64,000 bases of DNA from NCBI GenBank assembly GCA_902629285.1, contig CACOQN010000008.1, positions 1 through 64,000 on the forward strand, written 5' to 3'. Shown one piece after another: positions 19,258-37,640 of this stretch (the first letter of the stretch is position 1; every line of letters starts with the position of its first letter). The translations under genes were made by a program, and so were the position numbers. This DNA is from an uncultured Pelagibacteraceae bacterium. GTDB lineage: Bacteria; Pseudomonadota; Alphaproteobacteria; Pelagibacterales; Pelagibacteraceae. The notes under the pieces are model-generated. The model worked only from the letters and a program-made list of their open reading frames with translations. It had not been told where the DNA came from and ran no database searches.

Positions 19258-20277
19258 ATGAAAAAACTAAATACTGTATTACTTTCTGCAGTGCTAGCAT
19301 TAGGAATGTCAGCGTTTAACAGTGTTGCTAATGCATGTGGAAAATTAGTAATTGCCGAGCAAAACTGGGCTTCAGCCGAGTTAATGGCAAACGTTGATAA
19401 AATTATCCTTGAAGAGGGATATGGTTGTGAGGTGGAATTAGTGCCTGGTGCTACTATGCCTACTTTTACATCTATGAATGATAAAGGAACTCCTGACATG
19501 AACCCTGAACAATGGGCAAATGCAGTTTACACTCCTCTAAAAAAAGCAGTAAGCGAGAAAAGGTTAATTATTGCCAATAAAGCTCCAATTACAGGTCTAG
19601 GTGAAGGTTGGTGGTTAAATCCTGCAGCTATGAAAAAACATCCAGAGCTTAAAGGAATGACGGCAATGCAAATCCTAGAACGTCCTGACTTATTTCCAGA
19701 CAAAGAAGATCCATCAAAAGGAGCTTTCATGGGATGTCCAGCTGGTTGGGGATGTCAATTAGCTAATGCTAATCTTTACAGAGCTTTTGACATGGAAAAA
19801 AAAGGATGGAAGTTAATTGATCCAGGTTCTGCTGCAGGTTTAGATGGTTCTATCGCTAAAGCTTCAGATTCTGGTGAGCCATGGTTTGGTTATTATTGGA
19901 ATCCAACTTCAATGGTTGGTAAATATAATCTACAACCAGTAGACTTTGGTGTACCTTTTGCAGGAAGAGATAACTGGGATAATTGTATTACACTTGCAGA
20001 GCAAGATTGTGCAAATCCAAAACCAACTGCATGGACAAAATCTGAGGTTAACTCAATTGTAAGTGCTAACTTTGCAAAAACTGGTGGAAAAGATGTCCTT
20101 AGTTATGTTGAAAAAAGAACTTATCCAGGCACAGTAATGAACGGAATGTTAGTTTATATGGCTGATAACCAGGCAAAAGGTTCAGATGCTGCTGTTGAGT
20201 TTTTAATAAAGCATGAGGATATTTGGACTAAATGGGTGTCTTCAAGTGCTGCAAAAAAAATCAAAAAAAGTTTATAA
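19258..20277 (+). CDS. Glycine betaine/onium ABC transporter substrate-binding protein (OpuAC family)
   Basis: 339 residues. Signal peptide of about 25 residues (cleavage near VANA-CG), then an OpuAC domain beginning LVIAEQNWASAELMANV. The early Trp and further aromatic residues (WW near 117, W in GWGCQ) suit an aromatic cage for a quaternary ammonium or sulfonium group. Substrate could be betaine, DMSP, choline or similar. Followed by a strong stem-loop, then permease, MetF-like and DmdA-like genes. A second binding protein (TmoX) is at 49517-50461. Confidence 0.9.
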   Translation: MKKLNTVLLSAVLALGMSAFNSVANACGKLVIAEQNWASAELMANVDKIILEEGYGCEVELVPGATMPTFTSMNDKGTPDMNPEQWANAVYTPLKKAVSEKRLIIANKAPITGLGEGWWLNPAAMKKHPELKGMTAMQILERPDLFPDKEDPSKGAFMGCPAGWGCQLANANLYRAFDMEKKGWKLIDPGSAAGLDGSIAKASDSGEPWFGYYWNPTSMVGKYNLQPVDFGVPFAGRDNWDNCITLAEQDCANPKPTAWTKSEVNSIVSANFAKTGGKDVLSYVEKRTYPGTVMNGMLVYMADNQAKGSDAAVEFLIKHEDIWTKWVSSSAAKKIKKSL

Positions 20278-20330: not shown

Positions 20331-21215
20331 ATGGAATTTTTTACTGAATTTCCTGAAATGGGAAGACGATCCCAAATGGAGTTAAGAAAAGGTATAGACT
20401 TAGCTTTTAGAAATTTTTCAAGAGAATACGGGGACAATATAGAGGCATTTTTTGATCCATTATTATTTTTTTTAGTATCATTGGAAAAATTACTATTATC
20501 TACACCATGGATAATAATTATTTCAGTAATTTGCGGATTAGCCTGGTTGGGTTCAAAAAGTTGGAAATTAGTTACAGGTAGTGCAATTGCTTTTTTACTA
20601 ATTGGTTATTTTGGAATGTGGGAAGATTGTATGGCAACCGTTGCAATTATTACAGTTTGTACAATAATTTGTATCGTTATTGGTATCCCAATTGGTATTG
20701 TAATGGCAAGATCAACTAGAGCTGAAAAAGCAATTCTTCCTGTCTTAGATATGATGCAAACAATTCCAAGTTTTGTTTATTTAATTCCTATATTAATGTT
20801 ATTAGGAATTGGCAAAGTTCCTGGATTAATAGCTGTCTGTGTCTATGCAGTGCCACCAATTATACGGTTAACAAATCTTGGGATCAGAGAGGTAGACAAA
20901 GAAACTTTGGAAGCAAGTGAAGCTTTTGGAGCAACTACAACTCAAAAATTAAAATCCGTACAAATACCTCTTGCTTTACCTACTGTTTTTGCTGGCGTAA
21001 ATCAGACGATTATGATGGCTCTGGCCATGGTAGTTATTGCCTCTATGATAGGTGTTAAAGGTCTTGGTGTCCCGATATTGAGAGCTGTTTCTAACCAATA
21101 TTTGGCACTTGGTATGATGAACGGATTAGCAATAGTGGCTCTTGCAATTGTTTTTGATAGAGTAACTCAAGAGTATGGGAGAAGGATCCAAAAGCATAGA
21201 GGTCAAATAAAGTAG
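20331..21215 (+). CDS. Betaine-type ABC transporter permease (ProW-like)
   Basis: 294 residues. BPD_transp_1 domain with about six hydrophobic segments. The cytoplasmic EAA loop that docks the ATPase is visible (TLEASEAFGATTTQKLKSVQIP, split here around residues 202-223). The N-terminal about 50 residues are soluble, as in ProW. No ATPase gene follows; the nearest is tmoV at 47413-48444. Ribosome binding site is weak. Confidence 0.9.
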   Translation: MEFFTEFPEMGRRSQMELRKGIDLAFRNFSREYGDNIEAFFDPLLFFLVSLEKLLLSTPWIIIISVICGLAWLGSKSWKLVTGSAIAFLLIGYFGMWEDCMATVAIITVCTIICIVIGIPIGIVMARSTRAEKAILPVLDMMQTIPSFVYLIPILMLLGIGKVPGLIAVCVYAVPPIIRLTNLGIREVDKETLEASEAFGATTTQKLKSVQIPLALPTVFAGVNQTIMMALAMVVIASMIGVKGLGVPILRAVSNQYLALGMMNGLAIVALAIVFDRVTQEYGRRIQKHRGQIK

Positions 21216-21279: not shown

Positions 21280-22008
21280 ATGAATTTTTCTTTGGAAATA
21301 GGCCCTAAAACTGACATCGAAACAGTCCCTCCTGTAAATGACGTTTATATTACAATGCTGCCTGGCGGAGACTATAAAGAGACAGCTGAAAAAGCCATAG
21401 AGCTTGTAAAAAAGGGATTTAACCCTGTTCCTCACTTTCCAGCAAGATCAATGCAGGATGAAAACGAACTTAAAGATTATGTTTCCAGATGCAAAGATGG
21501 TGGAGTTAAGCAAGCTTTAATTATAGGTGGTGGAAGAGAGCCTGCAGGTAAATTTGACAGTTCGTTTCAACTTTTAGAAACAGGATATTTTGAGAAAATG
21601 AAAATAGGAATTGCTGGACATCCAGAGGGGAGTCCTGATATATCCGACTCAGAATTAGAAAAAGCTATGATAGATAAAAAGCCTTATGCTGATTATATTG
21701 TAACTCAATGGTTGCTTGATCCTCAGCCTATTATAGATTTTATTTCTAAGCAAAGCGTACCAGTGCATGTGGGAATTACTGGGCCATTAAAAATATCTAG
21801 CTTAATTAAATTTGCTAATATTGTTGGGGCAAAAAATTCCTTAAATTTTCTTAAATCTAATTTTACTAAGGCATTAGATTTATTGAAACCTAAAGACCCT
21901 AATGATTTAATTGGGAAAGTTAAATCGCATACTGATAACTTCCACATTTATACATTCGGCGGCTTGAAGGAAACTAACAAGTGGTTGAGGGAGAATAGTT
22001 ATGTCTAA
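21280..22008 (+). CDS. Methylenetetrahydrofolate reductase-like protein (MetF family)
   Basis: 242 residues, shorter than MetF (about 290). Early ITMLPGGDYKETAEKA and PVPHFPARSM match the MetF barrel start; IIGGGREPAG sits where MetF has the RGDPP FAD loop; GIAGHPEGSP is the conserved GYPE-like strand. In an operon with a methyltransferase it may run in the oxidative direction, turning methyl-THF into methylene-THF (inference). Overlaps the next gene by 8 bases. Confidence 0.82.
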   Translation: MNFSLEIGPKTDIETVPPVNDVYITMLPGGDYKETAEKAIELVKKGFNPVPHFPARSMQDENELKDYVSRCKDGGVKQALIIGGGREPAGKFDSSFQLLETGYFEKMKIGIAGHPEGSPDISDSELEKAMIDKKPYADYIVTQWLLDPQPIIDFISKQSVPVHVGITGPLKISSLIKFANIVGAKNSLNFLKSNFTKALDLLKPKDPNDLIGKVKSHTDNFHIYTFGGLKETNKWLRENSYV

Positions 22009-23359
22009 TGAATTTGACTATACTAAATTAAAACATGTTACTTCTGTTGATCAGTCAGATAGAGAAGTACCATACAACTTAAGACAAAGTGGACCAACAA
22101 AAGTTGAAATGTTAATTTCAACAAGGGTAAGAAAATCACCTTATTGGCATTTATCAATGCAAGCAGGTTGTTGGAGAGCAACAGTATACAATCGTATTTA
22201 TCACCCAAGAGGTTATGTAAAACCTGAAGATGGTGGAGCTATGGTTGAATATGATGCTATTGTAAACCACGTAACAATGTGGAACGTTGCTGTTGAAAGA
22301 CAAATAAGAGTTAAAGGTCCAGATGCAGAAAAATTTACTGACTATGTAATCACAAGAGATGCAACTAAAATTTCACCTATGAGAGCTAGATATGTAATTC
22401 TATGTAATGCATATGGTGGAGTTTTAAATGATCCAATTCTTTTAAGAATTTCTAAAGATGAATTTTGGTTTTCATTGTCCGACTCTGATATTGGCATGTA
22501 TTTGCAAGGTGTTAATGCAGACGGAAGATTTAATTGTACAATTGAAGAAATTGATGCATGTCCAGTTCAAATCCAAGGTCCTAAATCAAAAGCATTAATG
22601 AAAGATCTTTGTGGAGATCAAGTTGATTTTGATAATATGCCTTTCTACGGGTTAGCTGAAGCTAAGGTTGGAGGAAGAGATGTTGTAATATCACAATCAG
22701 GTTTCTCAGGAGAAGCTGGTTATGAAATATACTTAAGGAATGCAACTTTATATGCTGAAGACATGTGGAATGCTGTATTAGATGCAGGAAAAAAACATAA
22801 CTTAATGGTTATTGCACCTGCACACCATAGAAGAATACAAGCGGGTATTCTTTCTTGGGGACAGGACATGGATCAACAGCATAATCCATTTCAGTGTAAT
22901 TTGGGTTATCAGGTATCATTATCTGGTAAAGGTGAATGGAATAAAAAAGCTGACTATGTTGGTAAAGCTGCTTTGGAGAAAATGGGAGCAGATATAAAAG
23001 CCGGACAGAAACCTTATAAACTACAATTAGTTGGAATGGAATTAGGTGGTAAACCGATTGATGATTATGCTCCTGACTTTTGGTTAGTATCACCTGAAAA
23101 AGGTGGAGATCCTGTTGGATTTATTACCTCACCATGGTGGCATCCAGAAAAGAAAACAAACATTGCTATGGGATATGTTCCATTTGATGGAACTTTAAAC
23201 CCTAATGGATTTCCAAAAGGGAAAGTTGGAACTAAATTTAAAGTTCATCTTCCAGAAAAATACTCAGATACTGCAGGAACTCCTGTAGATGCTGTAGTAG
23301 TAGATATTCCATTTAAAGAGTCTTTTAACGCAAATACAAGAGAAGTTGTAAAAGGCTAG
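22001..23359 (+). CDS. DmdA-like tetrahydrofolate-dependent methyltransferase (GcvT fold)
   Basis: 452 residues, longer than DmdA (about 370). Blocks that resemble DmdA more than GcvT: VERQIRVKGPDAEKF (98-112), VLNDPILL (141-148), SLSDSDI (158-164), SQSGFSGEAGYEIYL (231-245). DmdA moves a methyl group from DMSP to tetrahydrofolate. An N-terminal extension of about 60 residues and a long C-terminal region differ from DmdA, so the substrate may be another sulfonium or ammonium compound. Co-transcribed with MetF-like and uptake genes; a terminator follows. Confidence 0.78.
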   Translation: MSNEFDYTKLKHVTSVDQSDREVPYNLRQSGPTKVEMLISTRVRKSPYWHLSMQAGCWRATVYNRIYHPRGYVKPEDGGAMVEYDAIVNHVTMWNVAVERQIRVKGPDAEKFTDYVITRDATKISPMRARYVILCNAYGGVLNDPILLRISKDEFWFSLSDSDIGMYLQGVNADGRFNCTIEEIDACPVQIQGPKSKALMKDLCGDQVDFDNMPFYGLAEAKVGGRDVVISQSGFSGEAGYEIYLRNATLYAEDMWNAVLDAGKKHNLMVIAPAHHRRIQAGILSWGQDMDQQHNPFQCNLGYQVSLSGKGEWNKKADYVGKAALEKMGADIKAGQKPYKLQLVGMELGGKPIDDYAPDFWLVSPEKGGDPVGFITSPWWHPEKKTNIAMGYVPFDGTLNPNGFPKGKVGTKFKVHLPEKYSDTAGTPVDAVVVDIPFKESFNANTREVVKG

Positions 23360-23401: not shown

Positions 23402-23512
23402 ATGACTAAGAGTTTTTTAATAGCAGTTTGCATTATCATTGCTATTGCTTTAATAATATTTCCATTAATTGTTTCATATAGGGCTCAAAAAAATAAAAAT
23501 AAAAAAAATTAA
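23402..23512 (+). CDS. Tiny membrane protein (36 aa)
   Basis: ATG at 23402 to TAA at 23510-23512. The product is one transmembrane helix (about 4-24, Ile/Ala/Leu-rich) with a Lys/Asn-rich tail. The stop overlaps the next start as TAATG, which argues for translation coupled to the Yip1-like gene. No ribosome binding site is clear, and it starts right after the terminator, so expression is uncertain. Confidence 0.45.
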   Translation: MTKSFLIAVCIIIAIALIIFPLIVSYRAQKNKNKKN

Positions 23513-24057
23513 TGTTTGGTGAATTTTTAAATATAATCTTTAAGTCAATAAAATTAGATAAGACACTTTATTCAGATAATAAAAATTTTGGAGAAGCATC
23601 TATATACTTTGCTGGAATTATAATGATACTAGATGGTATTGCTGGAGCTGTAGCAGCAAATACTATTATTAAAACTGCTATCGCAATGTCAGGTCTAACT
23701 GCAATAGTCACTTGGTTAGTATGGGCAATTTTTATTTTTGTAATTGGAGTTAAATTATTTCCTGATAAGCAAACTAAAGTTTCTTTCAAAAAAGTTTTAA
23801 CAGCTGTTGGTTATGCGCATGCTCCTGGTTTGTTAAGATTTTTTGCTGTTACTCCAGATTTAATGGTACCAATAATTTTTCTTACACAGTTCTGGATTTT
23901 TGCAGGTTTAATAATTTCAACCAAACAAATATTAAGTTTAAAATCTAATTTTAAATCTTTCGGTATCGTACTTTTATCTTTTTTAATCATTGCATTTTTA
24001 TCTATATCATTCGTGATGAGCAGAATGAATATGCTTCCAGTTAGTCAAATCAGTTAA
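23512..24057 (+). CDS. Yip1-family integral membrane protein
   Basis: 181 residues with about five hydrophobic segments and a hydrophilic N-terminus. The pattern, including GYAHAPGLLRFFA around 106-118, is that of the bacterial Yip1/DUF1282 membrane proteins. Function of bacterial members is not established. Convergent with the zinc-ribbon gene: the last 4 bases overlap its end. Confidence 0.7.
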   Translation: MFGEFLNIIFKSIKLDKTLYSDNKNFGEASIYFAGIIMILDGIAGAVAANTIIKTAIAMSGLTAIVTWLVWAIFIFVIGVKLFPDKQTKVSFKKVLTAVGYAHAPGLLRFFAVTPDLMVPIIFLTQFWIFAGLIISTKQILSLKSNFKSFGIVLLSFLIIAFLSISFVMSRMNMLPVSQIS

Positions 24058-24221
24058 AGTGGAAAAATAGTCTTAGATACTCTACAAGATTTACACAATT
24101 TAAACCCAGTAAGAATTAAATTTTGAGTAACACTCTCGTTCTCTTCTCTGCATTCGTCACAAATATTATTTAATTCTTCAGTATTTAAGTTTGGATTTTT
24201 TTTATCAATTTCATCAATCAT
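24054..24221 (-). CDS. Small zinc-ribbon protein (55 aa)
   Basis: ATG at 24221, TAA at 24054-24056. The product starts MIDEIDKKNPNLN and has two CxxC pairs: C21-C24 (CDEC) and C43-C46 (CKSC), spaced 18 residues apart, a likely four-cysteine zinc ribbon. The start overlaps the 3' end of the DUF3726 gene by 8 bases, and spacing and strand fit a three- or four-gene operon with the M19 protein. No known family recognised beyond the zinc-ribbon shape. Confidence 0.65.
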   Translation of the reverse strand: MIDEIDKKNPNLNTEELNNICDECREENESVTQNLILTGFKLCKSCRVSKTIFPL

Positions 24222-24825
24222 TATCTGTCAAACCAGCACCTGCCGCACCCTCTTTTAAACTGTCACTTTCTTCTACAAAAGTTTCTTCAGATAACTTGTA
24301 TAAATTATTCCATTCATTGTCTGTAAAGTTATCCTCATTTTCAAGTAAATTAACCTCAATTGAATTTGCTATCTTTGGAAATTCTTGATCAATAAAATTT
24401 GAACTGATATTTACATTTAAATTTAGTAAAATTTTTTTTTCATCTATTTTTACATAAATTTTTTTTCCAATAATTTCTGAAGAACGACTTATGAAGGAAA
24501 TAAAAATTATTGGATAAGCAACGTTTTTGAATTCAATTTTTTTTAAATTTTCTAAAACAGTTATTTGATCTAAAAAACTAACACCTAAAGTAATTGGACA
24601 GTAAGGATTGTTTAATAAGGAGTTATTTTCGCTAATTATATTTAAATTTTCAAATTTACTTTTATTTTTTTGATTAAAATATTCATTAAGGTGCTTAATA
24701 CCTGGTAAACTAAATAGCTCTAATAACCTTATACTTTTTCCTGTTTCCTCAGAAACTCCCCAAGAATATCCTGCTGCCTTTGAAGCTCTTTTTACGGTAG
24801 TTTCAATTTCACTCAATGATTTCAT
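24214..24825 (-). CDS. DUF3726 protein
   Basis: 203 residues. The opening SLSEIETTVKRASKAAGYSWGVSEETGKSI, seen across residues 3-32, matches what I remember of DUF3726 (an alpha-helical start with a GxxEE motif). The rest is a mixed alpha/beta region with no catalytic signature. Function unknown. Separated from the 553-residue gene by two bases. Confidence 0.65.
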   Translation of the reverse strand: MKSLSEIETTVKRASKAAGYSWGVSEETGKSIRLLELFSLPGIKHLNEYFNQKNKSKFENLNIISENNSLLNNPYCPITLGVSFLDQITVLENLKKIEFKNVAYPIIFISFISRSSEIIGKKIYVKIDEKKILLNLNVNISSNFIDQEFPKIANSIEVNLLENEDNFTDNEWNNLYKLSEETFVEESDSLKEGAAGAGLTDND

Positions 24826-24827
24826 TA

Positions 24828-26489
24828 TTAAATATTAGTTTTATATACCCACTGCTCGTCATAACTTTTTAGCTCATTTGGAAGTGGTGCTCCCTGAAAC
24901 ATACAAATTCTTAACCATTTGTCAGATCGTGGATCAAATTTTAATGCCCCAAAAAAAGACAATTTTAGTCTAAGCATATCAATTGGCATTAGATCTTTAC
25001 CAATTGTATTATCTTGTATTTCTGAATAAGGAAATTTTTCTACAATGAATGCCCTTCTCACAACATGTCTTAATTCGGAGTTTGAAGTTAAAAACTCAGC
25101 AATAGTTAAACTATTTTTTGAGACTAATAATTTCTCATAAAGTTTTTTTATATCTCTCGCTATTGCTAAAGGTTGTTCTAATTCTGATCCATGCTCTTCA
25201 AAACGATCTGCCAATCTAGGTTCTTCTTTATTTTTTGAAATAAACCAAAAGTTTTTATTGTTTTCTTTTTTTTCAAAATTAATATCTATAATATTAGGAT
25301 ACTTTGCTTCAATGATATTCCGCAATTCTTCAACTATTCTATATGTTGGTATATTAAAATATCTTTCTTCATCTGAACTCATTTCTTTCACCAAAGGATT
25401 CACTATATCGTTATAGGGTTCCATCATTATTGAAACAATATATTCAATACATTCCTCACAAGTATTGTCCTCTAACCATTGATATATTTTATTATAAGGA
25501 TATTCGCTCTCGAAATTAAATTTTTTATTAATAAAACTTAAGAATTTCTCAACATCATTTAATAATGAAGAAATTTTTTTTTGTTGATATTCACTATCAC
25601 TATTCCAGCTTGTAATGTTTCTTAATGATTTTTTAACACAATCTAAAAATAAATCTTTATCTCTACTTTTCACATCTTTGATTTCTCTAATTTTTTTAAG
25701 TGCTCTTTCTCTACTTAAAATCCAATTATTTAGTAGGGTTGGGTGATTAACTATAAAAGGAGCCATACCTAAGCCTGTAGAATTACCAATTCCTAAATTT
25801 TTACAAATATTATGATCTAATTGAACAGCAGTTTTTGGATTTTTATGATAAGCAACATGATTAACTTGATCAAAAGTAAATTGTCTTACTAAATAAACTA
25901 GCATCATTTCTAATCTGAATGGCCCATTAATTTCTTCACGGTTTTTTATTCTAAATCGATCTGCTAATCCAAATTTACCTGACCCGTATACTGCTGTTGT
26001 TCTATATAAATAGCCGACTTTTGACAATAAATTCAGATCTGGTTGTTTCCCTTTGCTTAGGTTTTCAACAACATGATTATAAATTCTTACTGATTTATTT
26101 GCTCTCGATAAAGTTAATTCTTTATAAGAAAGTCTTCCAACTTCTTGTTTTGGAACTTCGTTTTTTAATCTTTCAATGTCTTTTTTTGTTGGCACTCCAT
26201 CATGCAATGTAAAAGCAGCATCCCATTTTGTAGCAATAACTCTATCTGATCTTTCTTCATCTTTAATTTCGTTTGCAAAACAAACTAAAGAATAAACTCT
26301 TTTATTTTTTTTAAATGAGTAAACAGCTTCTCCAAAACCATTTTCATTTAACTCGAATAGATCTCTTTTATATTCCCATTCTTTAAATTCATTTAAAAAG
26401 CTTCTTAAAAAAGACAACTTAGATTGATGAAAAGATCCTAGCCTTGATAATTTCATTATCTTATTTGGATCTCTAAGTTCGACTTTCAT
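24828..26489 (-). CDS. Large conserved-looking protein of unknown function
   Basis: 553 residues, soluble, no signal peptide, no transmembrane segment. I do not recognise a family. Visible features: a basic N-terminus with KLSRLGSFHQSKLSF; GSGKFGLADRFR near 168-179 and NPKTAVQLDHNICKNLGIGNSTGLGM around 215-240, Gly-rich and likely functional; a CEEC pair near 343-346; an acidic/Lys-rich C-terminus. The length and the dense charged motifs suggest an enzyme. It sits 2 bases from the M19 gene stop and DUF3726 start, so the three act together (inference). Confidence 0.6.
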   Translation of the reverse strand: MKVELRDPNKIMKLSRLGSFHQSKLSFLRSFLNEFKEWEYKRDLFELNENGFGEAVYSFKKNKRVYSLVCFANEIKDEERSDRVIATKWDAAFTLHDGVPTKKDIERLKNEVPKQEVGRLSYKELTLSRANKSVRIYNHVVENLSKGKQPDLNLLSKVGYLYRTTAVYGSGKFGLADRFRIKNREEINGPFRLEMMLVYLVRQFTFDQVNHVAYHKNPKTAVQLDHNICKNLGIGNSTGLGMAPFIVNHPTLLNNWILSRERALKKIREIKDVKSRDKDLFLDCVKKSLRNITSWNSDSEYQQKKISSLLNDVEKFLSFINKKFNFESEYPYNKIYQWLEDNTCEECIEYIVSIMMEPYNDIVNPLVKEMSSDEERYFNIPTYRIVEELRNIIEAKYPNIIDINFEKKENNKNFWFISKNKEEPRLADRFEEHGSELEQPLAIARDIKKLYEKLLVSKNSLTIAEFLTSNSELRHVVRRAFIVEKFPYSEIQDNTIGKDLMPIDMLRLKLSFFGALKFDPRSDKWLRICMFQGAPLPNELKSYDEQWVYKTNI

Positions 26490-26491
26490 AG

Positions 26492-27457
26492 TTAAATATA
26501 TTTATAAAAATTGTACCAGTTATTGCCAAGTATTCCATGTGTCTCAGTATCTGAAAATCCCACTTTTTTAAGACCTTTCTCAATATTTGAAAACCCTCTT
26601 GCATCAAGAAACCAATCAGGCTGTTTTGGAAAACCTGGTTTATTTTTTGATCCTTCACCAAGATTTTTACTTTTTGACCATGAGCCATTTCTCATCCATT
26701 CAACAACAGTGTCTGGATGATCCAAACATAGATCAGAACCAATTCCAATTTTTGTCACATCCATTATTTCAGCAGTTTTAGCAACCATTTCACAAAAACT
26801 TTCAAGAGTGCAATTTGTGTTATCTTTCAAATGATGAGGATACAATGACAATCCTAAAATACCACCGCTATCACTTAAAATTTTTAATAAATCTGAGGAT
26901 TTATTTCTTTTGGCTGCATGCCAAAAGGATGGGTTTGCATGAGTTATTGCAATTGGTTTTTCACTTAACTCGATAGCATCTAGAGTGCTTTTTTCTGCAG
27001 AATGGGACATGTCAATCACAAGACCAACTCTGTTCATTTCTCTTATTACCTCACGCCCAAAATTTGTTATTCCACCATCTACTTTTTCATAACAACCTGT
27101 AGCAAGTAAAGATTGGTTATTATAAGTGAGTTGCATAAAACGACATCCTAATTTATAAACCTTTTCAACAAGCATGATGTCGTCTTCAATCGGCGAACAA
27201 TTTTGAAAACCGAAAAATATCGCAGTTTTGTTTTCTTTTTTAGCTTTATCAATGTCATGAAAATTCTTACCAGGAAAAATTAGATCAGAATTTTCTTTAA
27301 ATAATATATCCCATTTTTTAATTTCAAGTTGCAGTTCATCAAAATCTTCATGATAAACAATCGTAACATGAACAGCATCTAGGCCAGCAGCTCTATTTAT
27401 CTCAAAAATTTTTCTAGACCATTTACAATATTGGAGATTGTCGATTTTATAATTCAT
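26492..27457 (-). CDS. M19-type membrane-dipeptidase-like metalloprotein with altered first metal site
   Basis: 321 residues from the ATG at 27457 (a TTG reading adds seven residues). M19 fold landmarks present: LVIDMSHS and ITHANP with the second-metal histidines, and GIGSDLC with the catalytic-site Asp. The usual HxD at the N-terminus reads HVT here (DAVHVTI), and the bridging Glu of the next strand seems to be Gln (FFGFQNC). The first metal site is probably changed, so ordinary dipeptidase activity is doubtful. No signal peptide, unlike membrane dipeptidases. Operon with the 553-residue unknown and DUF3726. Confidence 0.75.
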   Translation of the reverse strand: MNYKIDNLQYCKWSRKIFEINRAAGLDAVHVTIVYHEDFDELQLEIKKWDILFKENSDLIFPGKNFHDIDKAKKENKTAIFFGFQNCSPIEDDIMLVEKVYKLGCRFMQLTYNNQSLLATGCYEKVDGGITNFGREVIREMNRVGLVIDMSHSAEKSTLDAIELSEKPIAITHANPSFWHAAKRNKSSDLLKILSDSGGILGLSLYPHHLKDNTNCTLESFCEMVAKTAEIMDVTKIGIGSDLCLDHPDTVVEWMRNGSWSKSKNLGEGSKNKPGFPKQPDWFLDARGFSNIEKGLKKVGFSDTETHGILGNNWYNFYKYI

Positions 27458-27551
27458 AGAATGCTTAACTTTAATCAATATGTATTTTAAATACTATTAA
27501 TTTTATTGAAATTTTAAATTAATTTTGAAATAAACAGATTGTTCTATTTTC

Positions 27552-32533: not shown

Positions 32534-33121
32534 TTAAATAGATTTAAAGCCAAATTCTAGCGAAGCATCCGTGATAGCATGATACAAAGATTCTCCAAAA
32601 CTTCTTAAGGTAAATAATCTTACTTTATTTGGATTATCATTTAGTTTATCAACAGTGAAAGCTATTCCATTATAAGTTGAGTTTATGGAATTATTTATTT
32701 CTAAGGTATTGAAATTAAATGGGCACCCTTTTTTTAAAACTTCTATTGTCTCTTTACCCTCAATCTCAATGATTGCTCTTGAATGTGATAAATCTGTTAT
32801 TGCAAAGTCTGTATCTTTAAATTCGTTTAGAATATTTTTAATTAAATCTTTTTTTGTTGATACTAACATCCAGTTCTTCGGCCCATTCCACATAATTCTT
32901 GTAGTGTCATTAAATACGACGGTTAAAGATTCGTTTTTTAGTTTTAATCCATCAACATTAATACCTTCAAATGAAACTGAGGAGTTTTTATACTGAAATA
33001 TTTGAACAATTAGTAAATTTTTATTTTCAGATATTTTGAGGAGATCATTTTCATTTTTTTCCTCATAATCTCCAAACTGACCTGTTGTATGAACATTTGC
33101 TAAAGCTGAAATTAAAGTCAT
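32534..33121 (-). CDS. Sarcosine oxidase gamma-type subunit (SoxG; or N-methylglutamate dehydrogenase D)
   Basis: 195 residues. The short GcvT-fold gamma chain of the four-subunit enzyme: [17 protein letters not shown] is the diagnostic middle stretch, and [17 protein letters not shown] precedes CPFN. Overlaps SoxA by 4 bases (ATGA). Subunit order B-D-A-G is identical in soxBDAG and mgdABCD, so the substrate (sarcosine or N-methylglutamate) is open. Confidence 0.85.
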
Positions 33122-36114
33122 GATCTAACCCTTTCACCTTTTGGATCTACATAATGTGATGAAACTATTTCTACTGGTATTACTTTATTTTTAAGAGGTG
33201 ACATTACAAATAATTTTTTACCGATCATATTTTTTCCATCTTTCAATATTGCTAAAGAAAAAGGATTGTCATATTCAACACTCCAACATGATGCTGAAAT
33301 ATGTCCCAACTTTGGATTTGGTAAAGGTGCATTAGCATCTTTAACTAAGTGAGACCCCTCTGGAATACTTGTTTTTTTATCTAGCGGAACAACTCCTACC
33401 ACTCTTTGTCTATCGTCTGCTGTAAAAGCTACTCTTTGAAGTGATCTTTTTCCAATAAAGTCTTTCTTTTTGCTCACAAGACCCTCTAAAGCGTTGTCAT
33501 AAGGTATTGTTCTTCCATCAAGTTCAGAACCAGCAACATGTCCCATTTCAATTCTCAAAGTTGATAATGCCTCTGTACCGTATGGTTGTATTTTAAACTC
33601 CTCACCAACTTCCATAATTTTTTCCCACATAAAGTTTCCATTATCTGACTCGACATTAACTTCATATGCAAGCTCACCTGAAAAAGATATTCTAAATATT
33701 CTAGCTTTAACTCCAAATAAATCTCCTTCCATATAGCCCATAAAGGGAAGACCTTCATTAGATACATCTAAATTTGGGAATAATTTTTGTAGAACATTTC
33801 TAGATTTTGGACCTGCAATAGCTGCTCCTGCCCATTGTTCAGTTGTTGAAACAACATTAACATTTAATTCAGGCCATACTAATTGTAAATAATATTCTAA
33901 ATGTGAAAGAACATTTGCTGCCTGTGCAGTTGTAGTAGTCATATGATAGTGATTTTCAGAAATTCTTGTAGTTGTTCCATCATCCATCACAATTCCATCT
34001 TCTCTTAGCATTACTCCATATCTAGCTTTACCGACTGGCAATTTTAACCAAGCATTCGTATAAACTCTATTTAATAACTCAGCTGCATCTGGCCCTTTAA
34101 TATCAATTTTACCAAGTGTAGTCACATCACAAACACCAACATTTGTTCTCACATTTTTTGCCTCTCTCTTAGATCCTTCAAATAGATTTTCATTACCTCT
34201 CTTATAATATCTAGGTCTCAACCAAACACCTGCGTCGACAAAAACTGCATTATTTTTTTCATGCCAAGCATGTATTGGAGATTTCCTTGTTGGTTTCGAG
34301 TGTTTTCCAACCTCTCTTCCAACAATTGCACCAATTGAAATAGGTGTATATGGAGGTCTAAAAGTAGTATGGCCTACTGCCGGAACAACTTTATTTTCAA
34401 TTTCTGAAACTAACTGTAAGCCATTCAAATTACTTGTTTTACCTTGATCAGTTGCCATACCAAGTGTAGTATATCTTTTAACATGCTCTATTGATCTATA
34501 TCCTTCCCTAAGAGCTATTTCGATATCTGATACAGCTACATCGTTTTGAAAATCTAAAAATCTTTTATAATGTTTTCCTGCTGGTAATGGAACACACCAA
34601 AACTTATCATGCTGAGAAGATTTTTTTTCAACTACATTTGGAATACTTACCTCATTATCATTTTTAGTTATTTTTTTTGAAATTTCACTTCCTTTTGCAA
34701 ATGAAGTTTGTAAAGTTTCCTCCAAAGAGAACACTCCATTAGCAGCTCCTAAAGTTGTTTCTTGTTGTTTTGAGACTCCAGGAACAAATGCATCAATTTC
34801 TTCTTTAAACTTAGTTTTATTTCCTGATTGAGAAGCTAAATGAATAGACGGTGTCCAAAAACCTGAAACACATATGCAATCACATTTAATATTTTCTATT
34901 TTTCCAAGTTGTTTTTTATCATCAGAAATACTCGCTATATCTGCAGATTTTACTTTTTTATAACCTTGCGCTGCAACAACAACATAAGAATTTTTAATAT
35001 TTATTCCTAAACTTTTTGCCTCATCAATAATTTCTGATTCAGGATTTTTTCTTGAATCTAATATTACTGGTTTTACTCCATGCTTTTGAAATTCTATAGC
35101 TGTTTCATATCCACTGTCATTATTTGTAAATATCAATGGGTTTTTTCCAACTAAAACTCCATAAACTTTTAAATATTCTTTGGCAGCAGATGAAAGCATT
35201 ACACCTGGCGTATCATTATTTCCAAAAACTATTGGTCTCTCAATAGATCCTGATGAAATTAAAACTTCTTTTGCACGGATGTACCATAATCTTTTATTTG
35301 GATGATATTTTTTTGTTTTTGGTAAATGATCACTTACCTTTTCAGACATTACAAGCATGTTGTGATCATAATAGCCAAAGATTTGAGATCTATTTTTTAC
35401 AACAACATTTGGCATTGTTTTAAGTTCGGTAATTATTCCTTCAGCCCAATCTTTTCCTGATTGGTTTCCAATATTCACATCATCTGTTAATAAAGACCCA
35501 CCAAATCTAGGCTTGTCTTCTGCTAAAATAACTTTTGCACCATTTTTTGCGGCTGCATATGCGCTAGACAAACCTGATGGTCCTGATCCAGCTATCAATA
35601 AATCACAATATTCATATTTATGCTCATATCTCTCTTTATCATGTTTAGTAGATGCTACACCTAATCCAGCCGCTTTTCTTATAAAGGGCTCATAAATTCT
35701 ATACCAAAAGCTTTTTGGCCACATAAAAGTTTTATAGTAAAATCCTGCAGGTAGAAAAATTTTTAAAAAATTATTAATTGCGCCAATATCAAAATTAACA
35801 CTTGGCCAACAATTTACACTTTTTGCCTCTAAACCCTCAAAAAGTTCTTGCTCAGTTGCTTTTATATTCGGCTCAGTCTCATTATTTCTATAAAGCTGAA
35901 CTATTGCATAAGGTTCATCTACTCCTGCTCCAAAAAAACCTCTTGGCCTATGATATTTAAAACTTCTACCAACTAAATGAACTCCATTTGCAAGTAATGC
36001 AGATGCTAAAGTATCACCTTCATATCCAAAATATTTTTTCCCATTGAATTTAAATGATAGTTTTTTATCTCTATTAATTAATCCAACACTTTCTAGTCTG
36101 AAATCTTGAGACAT
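33118..36114 (-). CDS. Sarcosine oxidase alpha-type subunit (SoxA; or N-methylglutamate dehydrogenase C)
   Basis: 998 residues. N-terminal ferredoxin-like fold without cysteine ligands (about 15-80), a FAD/NAD-binding domain starting AGSGPSG (175-181), and a C-terminal GcvT-type THF domain (about 620-998). It receives the imine from the beta subunit and passes the C1 unit to tetrahydrofolate as methylene-THF. In the methylamine pathway the same architecture is MgdC. The GmaS-MgsABC genes 18 kb away make the second reading attractive, whereas the DMGDH-like enzymes at left favour sarcosine. Confidence 0.9.
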
Positions 36115-36383
36115 TAGACAACTCCCTCGTCAGCTTTAAAAGTATTAAATATTTCATGAGTTGCAGTATCTCTCTCTACTTTTATCCATTGTCTACATCC
36201 TGATATATGTTGCCATAACTCTAAATGTTTTCCTCTTAAACTTTTTCTATTGTAAACAAAGTCATCCCATTCTTGATCAGAAATTTCTTTGTTCAACTCT
36301 GGCCTTTTTACACTTGCATCTCCGCCATAAGAAAATTCAATTTGTGGTCTCATTCCACAATGTGGGCATTTAATATAGAGCAT
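36114..36383 (-). CDS. Sarcosine oxidase delta-type subunit (SoxD; or N-methylglutamate dehydrogenase B)
   Basis: 89 residues. Zinc ligands are visible: CPHC (C6, C9) and the HISGC pair near 59-63. Structural subunit of the heterotetramer. Shares one base with SoxA and is one base from SoxB, so all are coupled. Confidence 0.92.
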   Translation of the reverse strand: MLYIKCPHCGMRPQIEFSYGGDASVKRPELNKEISDQEWDDFVYNRKSLRGKHLELWQHISGCRQWIKVERDTATHEIFNTFKADEGVV

Positions 36384-37640
36384 CTATGATATCCAGGTTT
36401 TAGTTCCGAGTCCTTTTTCGTCAATTAGATGACCAGTATTAAACCTATTCAAACTATATCCTGCATTTAATTCGTGAACTCTATCTTGAGCGATTGTGTG
36501 TGCAAATGTCCAACCAGATGCTGGTGTTGCTTTAAAACCTCCATAACACCAACCACAATTTAAATACAAACCATCTATATGAGTTTTATCAATTATGGGA
36601 GATCCATCCATTGACATATCCATAATACCGCCCCAAGTTCTAAGCATTTTTAACTTACTTAAAAAAGGCATCATCGCTATACCTTCGGTCAAAACATGTT
36701 GCAAAGTAGGTAAATTTCCTCTTTGTGCGTAACTATTATAACCATCTAAGTCACCGCCCATTACCATTTCGCCTTTATCTGATTGACTAATATAAAAATG
36801 TCCAGCACCAAATGTTACAACGCTATCCAAAACAGGTTTAACTGGCTCCGAAACACATGCTTGAAGAAGATGAGTTTCTATTGGTAGGGTCATGTTTAAT
36901 TTTTCAGCCAAAATATTTGTACTGCCTGCAACACATAAACCAACTTTTTTAGCTCTAATATTTCCACGAGATGTTCGAATGCCATTTATTTTTCCAGCAG
37001 AAACATCAAAACCAATTACCTCACAATTTTGTATAATATCTACCCCCATGTCATCTGCTTGACGAGCATAACCCCAAGCTACGGCATCATGTCTTGCAGT
37101 TCCTGCGCTTGGTTGCATCAAGCCACCAAAAATTGGAAATCTAACATTTTCAGAAAAATCAGCCATTGGAATAATTTCTTTGACCTGTTCTCTATTCAAA
37201 AGAACAGCATCTATTCCATTTAACCTCATTGAGTTGCCCCTTCTCGCATAAGCATTCATTTGCGCATCTGAGTGAGCTAGATTAATAATTCCTCGAGGAG
37301 AAAACATTACATTGTAATTTAGGTCTTGACTCATCTTTCTCCATAAATCCATTCCAAATTCACTAAATAATCCGTTTTCATCATGCATGTAATTAGATCT
37401 GATGATTGTAGTGTTTCGTCCTACGTTTCCACCTCCAATCCATCCTTTTTCGATGATTGCAACTTTTGTAATATTATGTTCTTTTGCAAGATAATACGCT
37501 GTAGCAAGACCATGGCCACCTCCTCCAATAATTACTACATCATATTCCTCTTTTGGTTCTGGGTCCTTCCATGCTAAATCCCAATTTTGATGATTAGAAA
37601 AAGCATTTTTGACTAAATTAAATATAGAATATTTCTGCAT
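36384..37640 (-). CDS. Sarcosine oxidase beta-type subunit (SoxB; or N-methylglutamate dehydrogenase A)
   Basis: 418 residues. FAD site GGGGHG at 39-44. H184 in TARHDAVAWG matches the residue that carries covalent FMN in heterotetrameric sarcosine oxidase. This subunit performs the amine oxidation. First gene of the four-gene operon, divergent from formate-THF ligase, which would use the C1 units released. Confidence 0.93.
   Translation of the reverse strand: MQKYSIFNLVKNAFSNHQNWDLAWKDPEPKEEYDVVIIGGGGHGLATAYYLAKEHNITKVAIIEKGWIGGGNVGRNTTIIRSNYMHDENGLFSEFGMDLWRKMSQDLNYNVMFSPRGIINLAHSDAQMNAYARRGNSMRLNGIDAVLLNREQVKEIIPMADFSENVRFPIFGGLMQPSAGTARHDAVAWGYARQADDMGVDIIQNCEVIGFDVSAGKINGIRTSRGNIRAKKVGLCVAGSTNILAEKLNMTLPIETHLLQACVSEPVKPVLDSVVTFGAGHFYISQSDKGEMVMGGDLDGYNSYAQRGNLPTLQHVLTEGIAMMPFLSKLKMLRTWGGIMDMSMDGSPIIDKTHIDGLYLNCGWCYGGFKATPASGWTFAHTIAQDRVHELNAGYSLNRFNTGHLIDEKGLGTKTWIS

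Follow-up and report, generated by a model that had tools for sequence, protein, structure and literature searches.

A SAR11 form of a putative betaine catabolic module containing DUF3726 and an orphan 553-residue protein

The catabolism of homarine (N-methylpicolinate) and of other N-methylated compounds provides the closest described systems for the subject of this report, a four-gene block in a 64,000-nucleotide stretch of DNA (positions 1 to 64,000 of contig CACOQN010000008.1, assembly GCA_902629285.1; hereafter the window) from an uncultured Pelagibacteraceae bacterium, the genome bearing the window being 1.31 Mb in size. The first three genes encode an M19-like amidohydrolase, an orphan protein of 553 residues, here called U553, and a DUF3726 protein. 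Mgd is reported to be involved in homarine catabolism, and in R. pomeroyi an AraC-type gene, tmaR, adjoins and is syntenic with mgdABCD (PMC13390433). The homarine pathway may resemble the module described below in the involvement of Mgd, since two named loci have an mgd-type operon next to the module, and in a ring-type imine reductase. The dimethylglycine/sarcosine and mgd operons are related to it as neighbours in several loci; they differ in having other enzymes, the module itself possessing neither a flavin (FAD) nor a folate demethylase.

A homarine catabolism pathway has reportedly been published by Ferrer-Gonzalez et al. in 2026, in Nat Microbiol 11:1531, with an operon said to be named homABCDER. 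With five enzyme genes and one for a LysR regulator, the larger operon described below would agree with the reported number of genes, and the module may be the homarine operon already in print. The SAR11 module differs from that operon in having no linked aldehyde dehydrogenase, LysR or BCCT gene, and in the window no Ldh_2 gene, and in having an extra gene for a 55-residue protein. The literature search found no paper on homarine genes beyond the citation in PMC13390433. In our favoured view, the block represents a SAR11 version of a widely conserved module that breaks down an N-methylated betaine, most likely homarine; we assign this explanation as a whole a probability of about 0.5.

The gene block and its conserved core

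The four genes, all from the listing of open reading frames (ORFs) and given in the order of transcription, are:

26492..27457, minus strand: M19-like amidohydrolase, 321 amino acids (aa) from an ATG start
24828..26489, minus strand: U553, orphan 553-residue protein, core of the module
24214..24825, minus strand: DUF3726 protein (PF12525), 203 aa, with a predicted Ldh_2-like fold that lacks the SHG motif and a tail conserved at the C terminus
24054..24221, minus strand: 55-residue protein with two CxxC pairs (zinc-ribbon-like), Pelagibacter add-on

The M19 frame extends from 26492 to 27478 if a TTG start is used, the in-frame ATG at 27457 giving the 321-residue protein. Successive genes are separated by 2 bases, by 2 bases and by an overlap of 8 bases, the spacing of 2 bases or overlap that a sequence-only reading of this DNA had given. 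Comparison with 16 loci chosen from 80 named SAR11 loci reveals purifying selection on all four genes, with median ratios of nonsynonymous to synonymous substitution (dN/dS) of 0.067 for M19, 0.114 for U553 and 0.237 for DUF3726 (n = 16 each), and of 0.205 for the 55-residue gene (n = 14 of 16, two comparisons with saturated dS having been dropped). Purifying selection on all four, together with the synteny conserved in the named SAR11 loci, shows that the arrangement is not due to chance.

The 80 named loci are the best of 584 confirmed in the scan, all titled Pelagibacteraceae, Pelagibacterales or Candidatus Pelagibacter. M19 adjoins U553 in every one; DUF3726 is adjacent in 79, the remaining locus being cut off where its contig ends, and 74 have the 55-residue gene. 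Across the SAR11 order, 138 of 197 genomes carry U553 and 135 carry the module M19, all of the latter being among the former when the lists are compared by eye; U553 without M19 was seen in three genomes (G085, G096 and G100), in the last two of which it sits at a contig end. By these counts, the module has been gained and lost as a block in the order.

The linkage extends well beyond SAR11, where organism names come from plasmid records and other genomes are placed by kinship only. DUF3726 was found by its Pfam model in 32 of 289 genomes of the class, and a U553 homologue adjoins it in 30 of the 30 class-level loci read, one homologue being a 61-aa fragment and two of the loci being those of the window and its genus. 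A U553 profile search was positive in 29 of 398 phylum genomes (33 matches, of which 28 were new loci and five were already in earlier locus sets). The gene after U553 was matched in 27 of these 28 loci (E < 0.001) by a DUF3726 model built without them, the weakest four matches lying between 1e-6 and 6.3e-4; this is the clean count, a 28/28 obtained with a model containing those sequences being partly circular. The same search matched one non-adjacent ORF, an Ldh_2 protein (L238), at 2e-4. M19 lies within 2.5 kb on the same strand in 26/30 class, 25/28 phylum, 8/9 named plasmid and 9/10 SAR11-order loci.

U553 is present in 168 of 72,556 plasmid records, including those of Phaeobacter, Sinorhizobium, Aminobacter, Shinella, Vibrio, Caballeronia and the haloarchaeon Natrinema. 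In a 20-sequence alignment, the closest relative of the window U553 from outside the order is that of locus L072 (59% identity). A divergent arrangement is that of the Sinorhizobium/Aminobacter aminovorans branch, in which a U553 of 24-28% identity is accompanied by M19, an ATP-binding cassette (ABC) transporter and a small partner, with no aldehyde dehydrogenase of the type described below; this small partner showed no match to the DUF3726 model (E 8.9, L257) or to the DUF3726 profile (5.6%). In one haloarchaeal locus, U553 is accompanied by a DUF3726-like protein, and there is no M19 match in the 17.6 kb covered. The sequence-only reading had expected the genes to act together and proposed a survey of their neighbourhoods, naming a failure to co-occur in other genomes as the outcome that would count against it. 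The joint occurrence of M19, U553 and DUF3726 holds across Alpha-, Beta- and Gammaproteobacteria, so the expectation is supported for these three, which by this comparison constitute the core of the module. The near-invariant pairing of DUF3726 with U553 is new as far as the literature was searched.

The 55-residue gene behaves differently. With the window protein as query, it was found in 5/5 loci of the genus, in 0/67 loci outside the order and in 0/5 loci of a second SAR11 family, and by this distribution it is a Pelagibacter add-on and no part of the core. The earlier description of its product as a mini zinc ribbon holds for the ORF and its two CxxC pairs; no family supports it, since the protein has no Pfam match above cut-off and its matches to ZZ (0.023) and DksA/TraR (0.019) are insignificant. 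A reduced SAR11 form of the module carrying an extra CxxC/CxxC protein is likewise new as far as the literature was searched.

The three core proteins

The M19-like protein matches the Pfam family (PF01244) with E 3.2e-67 and 227.4 bits against a cut-off of 26. An HxD pair at the first metal site, a bridging Glu, two later His and a late Asp serve the metal sites of M19 proteins. In alignment blocks read by eye, the HxD pair is replaced, mostly by LQY, in 39/39 module M19 proteins including that of the window, and the position of the bridging Glu is QN in all 39; the first of the later His is kept in 38 (Asp in L189) and the second His and the Asp in all, the window protein keeping all three. 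The absence of the HxD pair and bridging Glu had thus been called correctly. It is no peculiarity of this locus. The nearest solved chain is 2i5g_A, annotated as amidohydrolase (2.9e-57; dipeptidases are far weaker, at 7.2e-21 and below), and it shares the losses, with no HxD and with GFQN in place of the Glu motif. The alignment therefore indicates a trait of a subfamily. 2i5g is P. aeruginosa PA5396, from a region for dimethylglycine catabolism; its neighbourhood is not known to contain U553 or DUF3726, in which it would differ from the module.

U553 belongs to no family in Pfam or NCBIfam, a Pfam search with 20 aligned members giving chance matches only (0.046 and 0.088), and comparison of its profile with those of other neighbour families gave at best 3.5%, which indicates no relation. 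A V-ATPase match found when the 20-member profile was run against PDB sequences was rejected, its best E being only 0.17. An AlphaFold2 model built from 61 sequences (that of the window plus 60 from SAR11 loci found in the named scan) has a predicted local distance difference test score (pLDDT) of 72 and a predicted template-modelling score of 0.74, with conserved loops below 50. Searches of the PDB with this model gave no match (E no better than 0.096 in Foldseek, Z no higher than 3.7 in VIA-align), and it is quite possible that a fold relative was missed owing to the middling model. The sequence-only reading had called the protein one of no known family and suggested structure prediction as a check, a match to a known enzyme being the outcome that would speak against it; no such match came from Pfam, NCBIfam, PDB sequences or PDB folds.

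Among the residues of U553 that are invariant in 20 sequences, Arg, Asp, Glu, Asn and Trp are abundant, His occurs once and Cys is absent. The conserved stretches, at about 80-88, 165-183, 233-244, 415-438 and 492-525, are the low-confidence parts of the model, as would be expected of loops that become ordered on binding to a partner or ligand. Nine SAR11-order matches to U553 contain one in-frame stop (G004, G011, G024, G074, G088, G121, G143, G168 and G173), which for some is perhaps the gene end, and the match in G191 consists of two pieces with several stops; the stops may reflect decay or assembly error.

The window DUF3726 protein matches its Pfam family with E 2e-22 and 79.3 bits against a cut-off of 22.1, and looks like a shrunken Ldh_2 dehydrogenase that has lost the catalytic motif and gained a conserved tail. 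The structure model (pLDDT 87.7) retrieves Ldh_2 proteins, a family that includes 1wtj, 3uoe, YiaK and ureidoglycolate dehydrogenase, at Foldseek ranks 1-10 (best E 0.058, which is not significant alone; template-modelling scores 0.38-0.49) and at VIA-align ranks 1-15 (Z 8.6-10.3, the next row falling to 4.3). The 15 VIA-align entries are also those matched by sequence by the Ldh_2 protein encoded beside the module in other bacteria, and 155-180 residues align, spanning about 270-310 of the templates. The fold shared is that of the part of Ldh_2 outside the nucleotide-binding domain. Local hhalign comparison of the DUF3726 and Ldh_2 profiles gives a probability of 70-80% (P 1.4e-5 to 4.3e-5), with 34 other neighbour profiles at 2.7% or less, and the one stray ORF matched by the DUF3726 hidden Markov model, in L238, is a genuine Ldh_2. 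The Natrinema protein in the DUF3726 position matches PF02615 at 4.8e-9 (36.2 bits, under the cut-off of 38.8), and reaches 79% against the DUF3726 profile and 6.9% against that of Ldh_2; it may be an intermediate between the two families.

Kinship with Ldh_2 is opposed by a global hhalign probability of only 32.5% and by a PDB profile search with DUF3726 in which Ldh_2 was not among the matches, the only match being to an enoyl reductase at a non-significant 0.093. Support is weaker when the gammaproteobacterial partners alone are compared with Ldh_2 (49%).

The SHG motif, which is the catalytic motif of Ldh_2, is present in 11/12 Ldh_2 rows and replaced in DUF3726 by a gap or other residues; the Ldh_2 NAD(P) domain is not found in DUF3726. 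Ldh_2 proteins are longer (about 333 residues against 203), have a large middle part and lack the C-terminal tail, four aligned Ldh_2 rows stopping where it starts. GAG occurs in the last 30 residues of DUF3726 in 61/68 rows and a D-x-D end in 47/68, counts that include two wrong-frame ORFs (L184 and L189), loci without a length-passing ORF having given no row. The literature search found no paper on DUF3726, and an Ldh_2 ancestry with motif loss and a conserved tail would, to that extent, be new.

The larger operon and its possible substrate

The gene order LysR - aldehyde dehydrogenase - M19 - BCCT - U553 - DUF3726 - Ldh_2 is often seen in other Pseudomonadota. The annotations of Phaeobacter inhibens DSM 17395 and of Ruegeria TM1040 give the order sox/mgd-type genes, an AraC-type regulator (type assigned by Pfam), LysR, aldehyde dehydrogenase, M19, BCCT, U553 (annotated as hypothetical protein) and DUF3726, with an Ldh-family oxidoreductase after DUF3726 in TM1040. 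The locus tags of the module region are PGA1_RS18825-RS18850 in Phaeobacter and TM1040_RS02315-RS02345 in Ruegeria. The soxA/soxG-type operon and the regulator lie directly upstream of the module in both, in a tmaR-mgd-like layout. In DSM 17395 the Ldh_2 gene after DUF3726 consists of two unannotated frames (L181, 12318-12914 and 12950-13390), and of one in L234 and TM1040. Vibrio and Caballeronia (unannotated) have matches to LysR, aldehyde dehydrogenase, M19, BCCT, U553 and a DUF3726-type protein, and Aminobacter NyZ550 and Shinella have no BCCT at the module and glycine betaine ABC genes nearby. Two loci, L072 and L073, encode a substrate-binding protein, permease, ATPase, aldehyde dehydrogenase, M19, U553 and DUF3726 in one row and direction, the first two being homologous to two genes of the window whose ends lie 3.8 and 2.8 kb away from the module.

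Neighbour counts come from a distance-based search of the loci, the greedy gene caller having hidden genes of GC-rich loci under antisense ORFs. In 11/30 class, 16/28 phylum and 6/9 plasmid loci there is an aldehyde dehydrogenase within 6 kb whose identity to that of TM1040 is 50% or more; the corresponding numbers are 5, 16 and 6 for LysR and 5, 14 and 5 for BCCT. The TM1040 aldehyde dehydrogenase scores best with 2,5-dioxovalerate/alpha-ketoglutaric semialdehyde dehydrogenases, below their cut-offs, and its Ldh_2 is nearest to 1wtj, a delta1-piperideine-2-carboxylate reductase (4.8e-53, against 2.2e-38 for the next). Because the neighbours comprise transporters of the BCCT and betaine ABC types, an aldehyde dehydrogenase of the alpha-ketoglutarate-semialdehyde type, an Ldh_2 of the piperideine-carboxylate-reductase type and an mgd/sox-type operon, the module probably serves the catabolism of an N-methylated betaine. 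The undescribed system proposed from the sequence is thereby narrowed to a betaine catabolic module that is perhaps already in print. Homarine as the particular substrate has about an even chance.

A division of labour can be sketched only tentatively. U553 would act on the betaine after its import, DUF3726 serving it as a non-catalytic, Ldh_2-derived scaffold whose C-terminal tail docks into U553, and the two proteins would open the homarine ring between C5 and C6; this position, with loss of formate, is suggested because N-methylglutamate has one carbon fewer than homarine. The aldehyde dehydrogenase would oxidise the resulting C5 semialdehyde, the M19-like amidohydrolase would cleave a C-N bond of the product and remove the N-formyl remnant, the Ldh_2 enzyme would reduce N-methyl-iminoglutarate to N-methylglutamate, and Mgd would demethylate this to glutamate. 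Delta1-piperideine-2-carboxylate reductase has a side activity on N-methyl imino acids, which would fit N-methylglutamate formation. Unlinked enzymes of the genome would take over the aldehyde and imine steps in Pelagibacter. U553 might further found a new family of ring-opening enzymes, with DUF3726 a pseudoenzyme turned essential subunit that completes its active-site loops, taken to be the conserved low-confidence stretches, and with a SAR11 version pared down to three genes and a zinc-ribbon helper, a picture that is less likely than not.

Several observations weigh against homarine catabolism by this route. Family and fold searches tie U553 to no reaction. The operon type of aldehyde dehydrogenase, LysR and BCCT are present in part of the loci only, and in 0/10 of the SAR11-order loci. 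The idea that Pelagibacter keeps the aldehyde dehydrogenase elsewhere in its genome was rejected, the six relatives in the window genome, which thus has no close one, being only 31-34% identical to that of TM1040. The two Ldh_2 proteins of that genome belong to other subfamilies, at most 37% identical to the type found beside the module in L093; one is 57% identical to the Ldh_2 adjoining the module in L081. It follows from these gaps that other enzymes step in or that the SAR11 module ends at an earlier product. The other neighbours of the Sinorhizobium/Aminobacter aminovorans branch make more than one substrate likely. Finally, the Phaeobacter sox operon is 44-45% identical to that of the window, and Mgd and sarcosine oxidase both fit.

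The alternative that survives best is a module of the same kind acting on another betaine, such as proline betaine, hydroxyproline betaine, trigonelline, carnitine or a compound of the dimethylglycine type, in which case the aldehyde dehydrogenase would yield 2-oxoglutarate or glutamate from a C5 semialdehyde. This enzyme type also serves hydroxyproline and sugar-acid routes, which speaks for such a substrate, as do a dihydrodipicolinate-synthase-family gene in the Natrinema locus, a pyrroline-5-carboxylate-reductase-type gene with proline/betaine ABC genes nearby in Shinella, and the genes for Rieske-type oxygenases and DMGDH-like proteins that lie close to the module in Phaeobacter and in the window. 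The piperideine-carboxylate-reductase-type Ldh_2 and the location next to mgd/AraC genes point instead to a six-membered ring and to N-methylglutamate, leaving another betaine possible at less than even odds. A role in one-carbon accessory metabolism or repair, with the module protecting or recycling a folate or N-methyl intermediate and degrading no imported compound, would agree with the MTHFR-like and GcvT-like genes that adjoin the Pelagibacter module and with its lack of linked aldehyde dehydrogenase, BCCT and LysR genes. It is made unlikely by the transporters and LysR often linked outside SAR11, as in catabolic operons, and by a patchy occurrence in the order (138/197) that resembles an optional nutrient pathway.

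Hydrolysis of peptides or amides by a real M19 dipeptidase helped by U553 and DUF3726 would accord with the profile match of 3.2e-67, and is very improbable from the 39/39 proteins devoid of HxD and bridging Glu and from the haloarchaeal locus that pairs U553 with a DUF3726-like protein and shows no M19 match in 17.6 kb. Some other undescribed system, for example of defence or signalling, is suggested by the lack of a known family for U553 and is scarcely credible, the four proteins having no match in PADLOC-DB (E up to 0.01), a pattern scan of viral contigs having revealed no U553 relative, and the conserved neighbours being catabolic.

Should the module act on homarine or a similar betaine, it would provide a gene marker for a flow of carbon and nitrogen that is measured chemically and is difficult to attribute to particular organisms. 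SAR11 ranks with the most abundant cell groups of the ocean, and the sampled genomes of its order carry U553 in the proportion given above. Such a role would also give a first functional frame to DUF3726 and to an orphan family that occurs in marine, soil-dwelling and plant-associated bacteria, and would add a likely case of a dehydrogenase converted to a non-catalytic subunit. The larger operon is carried by the cultivable Phaeobacter and Ruegeria, in which these proposals are testable.

Genes around the module

The features of the window nearest in kind to the neighbours described above are:

19258..20277, plus strand: betaine/proline-type ABC substrate-binding protein (ProX-like, 1.6e-07, below cut-off), homologue in the L072/L073 row
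20331..21215, plus strand: choline/betaine-type ABC permease (TIGR03416, 1.6e-79, below cut-off), homologue in the L072/L073 row
21280..23359, plus strand: MTHFR-like and GcvT/DmdA-like pair (NCBIfam-type family search)
32534..37640, minus strand: soxB/soxA/soxG-like genes (TIGR01372, TIGR01373; soxG label from position only), candidate N-methylglutamate dehydrogenase (NMGD) or sarcosine oxidase

The MTHFR-like/GcvT-like pair is arranged as are metF (SAR11_1264) and the aminomethyltransferase gene SAR11_1265 (PMC3160333). Among the sox genes, TIGR01372 matches with 1310 bits at 33124-36105 and TIGR01373 with 670 bits; one of two such sox-type operons has been proposed as NMGD in the same source (PMC3160333).

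Tail to tail with the 55-residue gene, and overlapping it by 4 bases, is a gene for a 181-aa membrane protein (23512-24057) with a weak match to DUF1295 only (0.017). Four SAR11 loci (L127, L128, L155 and L157) keep M19-U553-DUF3726 and are missing both the 55-residue gene and this neighbour, and a fifth (L159) has the 55-residue gene without the membrane-protein gene. In the second SAR11 family (L091-L094 and L100), a gene of the aspartyl/asparaginyl-hydroxylase type adjoins the module (PF05118, 2.5e-07 for the copy in L093), and most of these loci have a further ABC transporter near it. An aldehyde dehydrogenase that also neighbours the module in this family was rejected as the operon type, being 32-36% identical to it and closer (47%, L093) to another Phaeobacter aldehyde dehydrogenase.

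Much of the window from 1602 to 63444 is a methylated-amine/one-carbon island, which resembles the HTCC1062 region discussed in PMC3160333. It contains DMGDH-like proteins, a GbcA-like Rieske protein, the betaine ABC and sox genes, fhs, GMAS-like and NMGS-like genes and an ammonium transporter gene, as well as a gene for trimethylamine N-oxide (TMAO) demethylase that scores 1082.9 bits against a cut-off of 1100.

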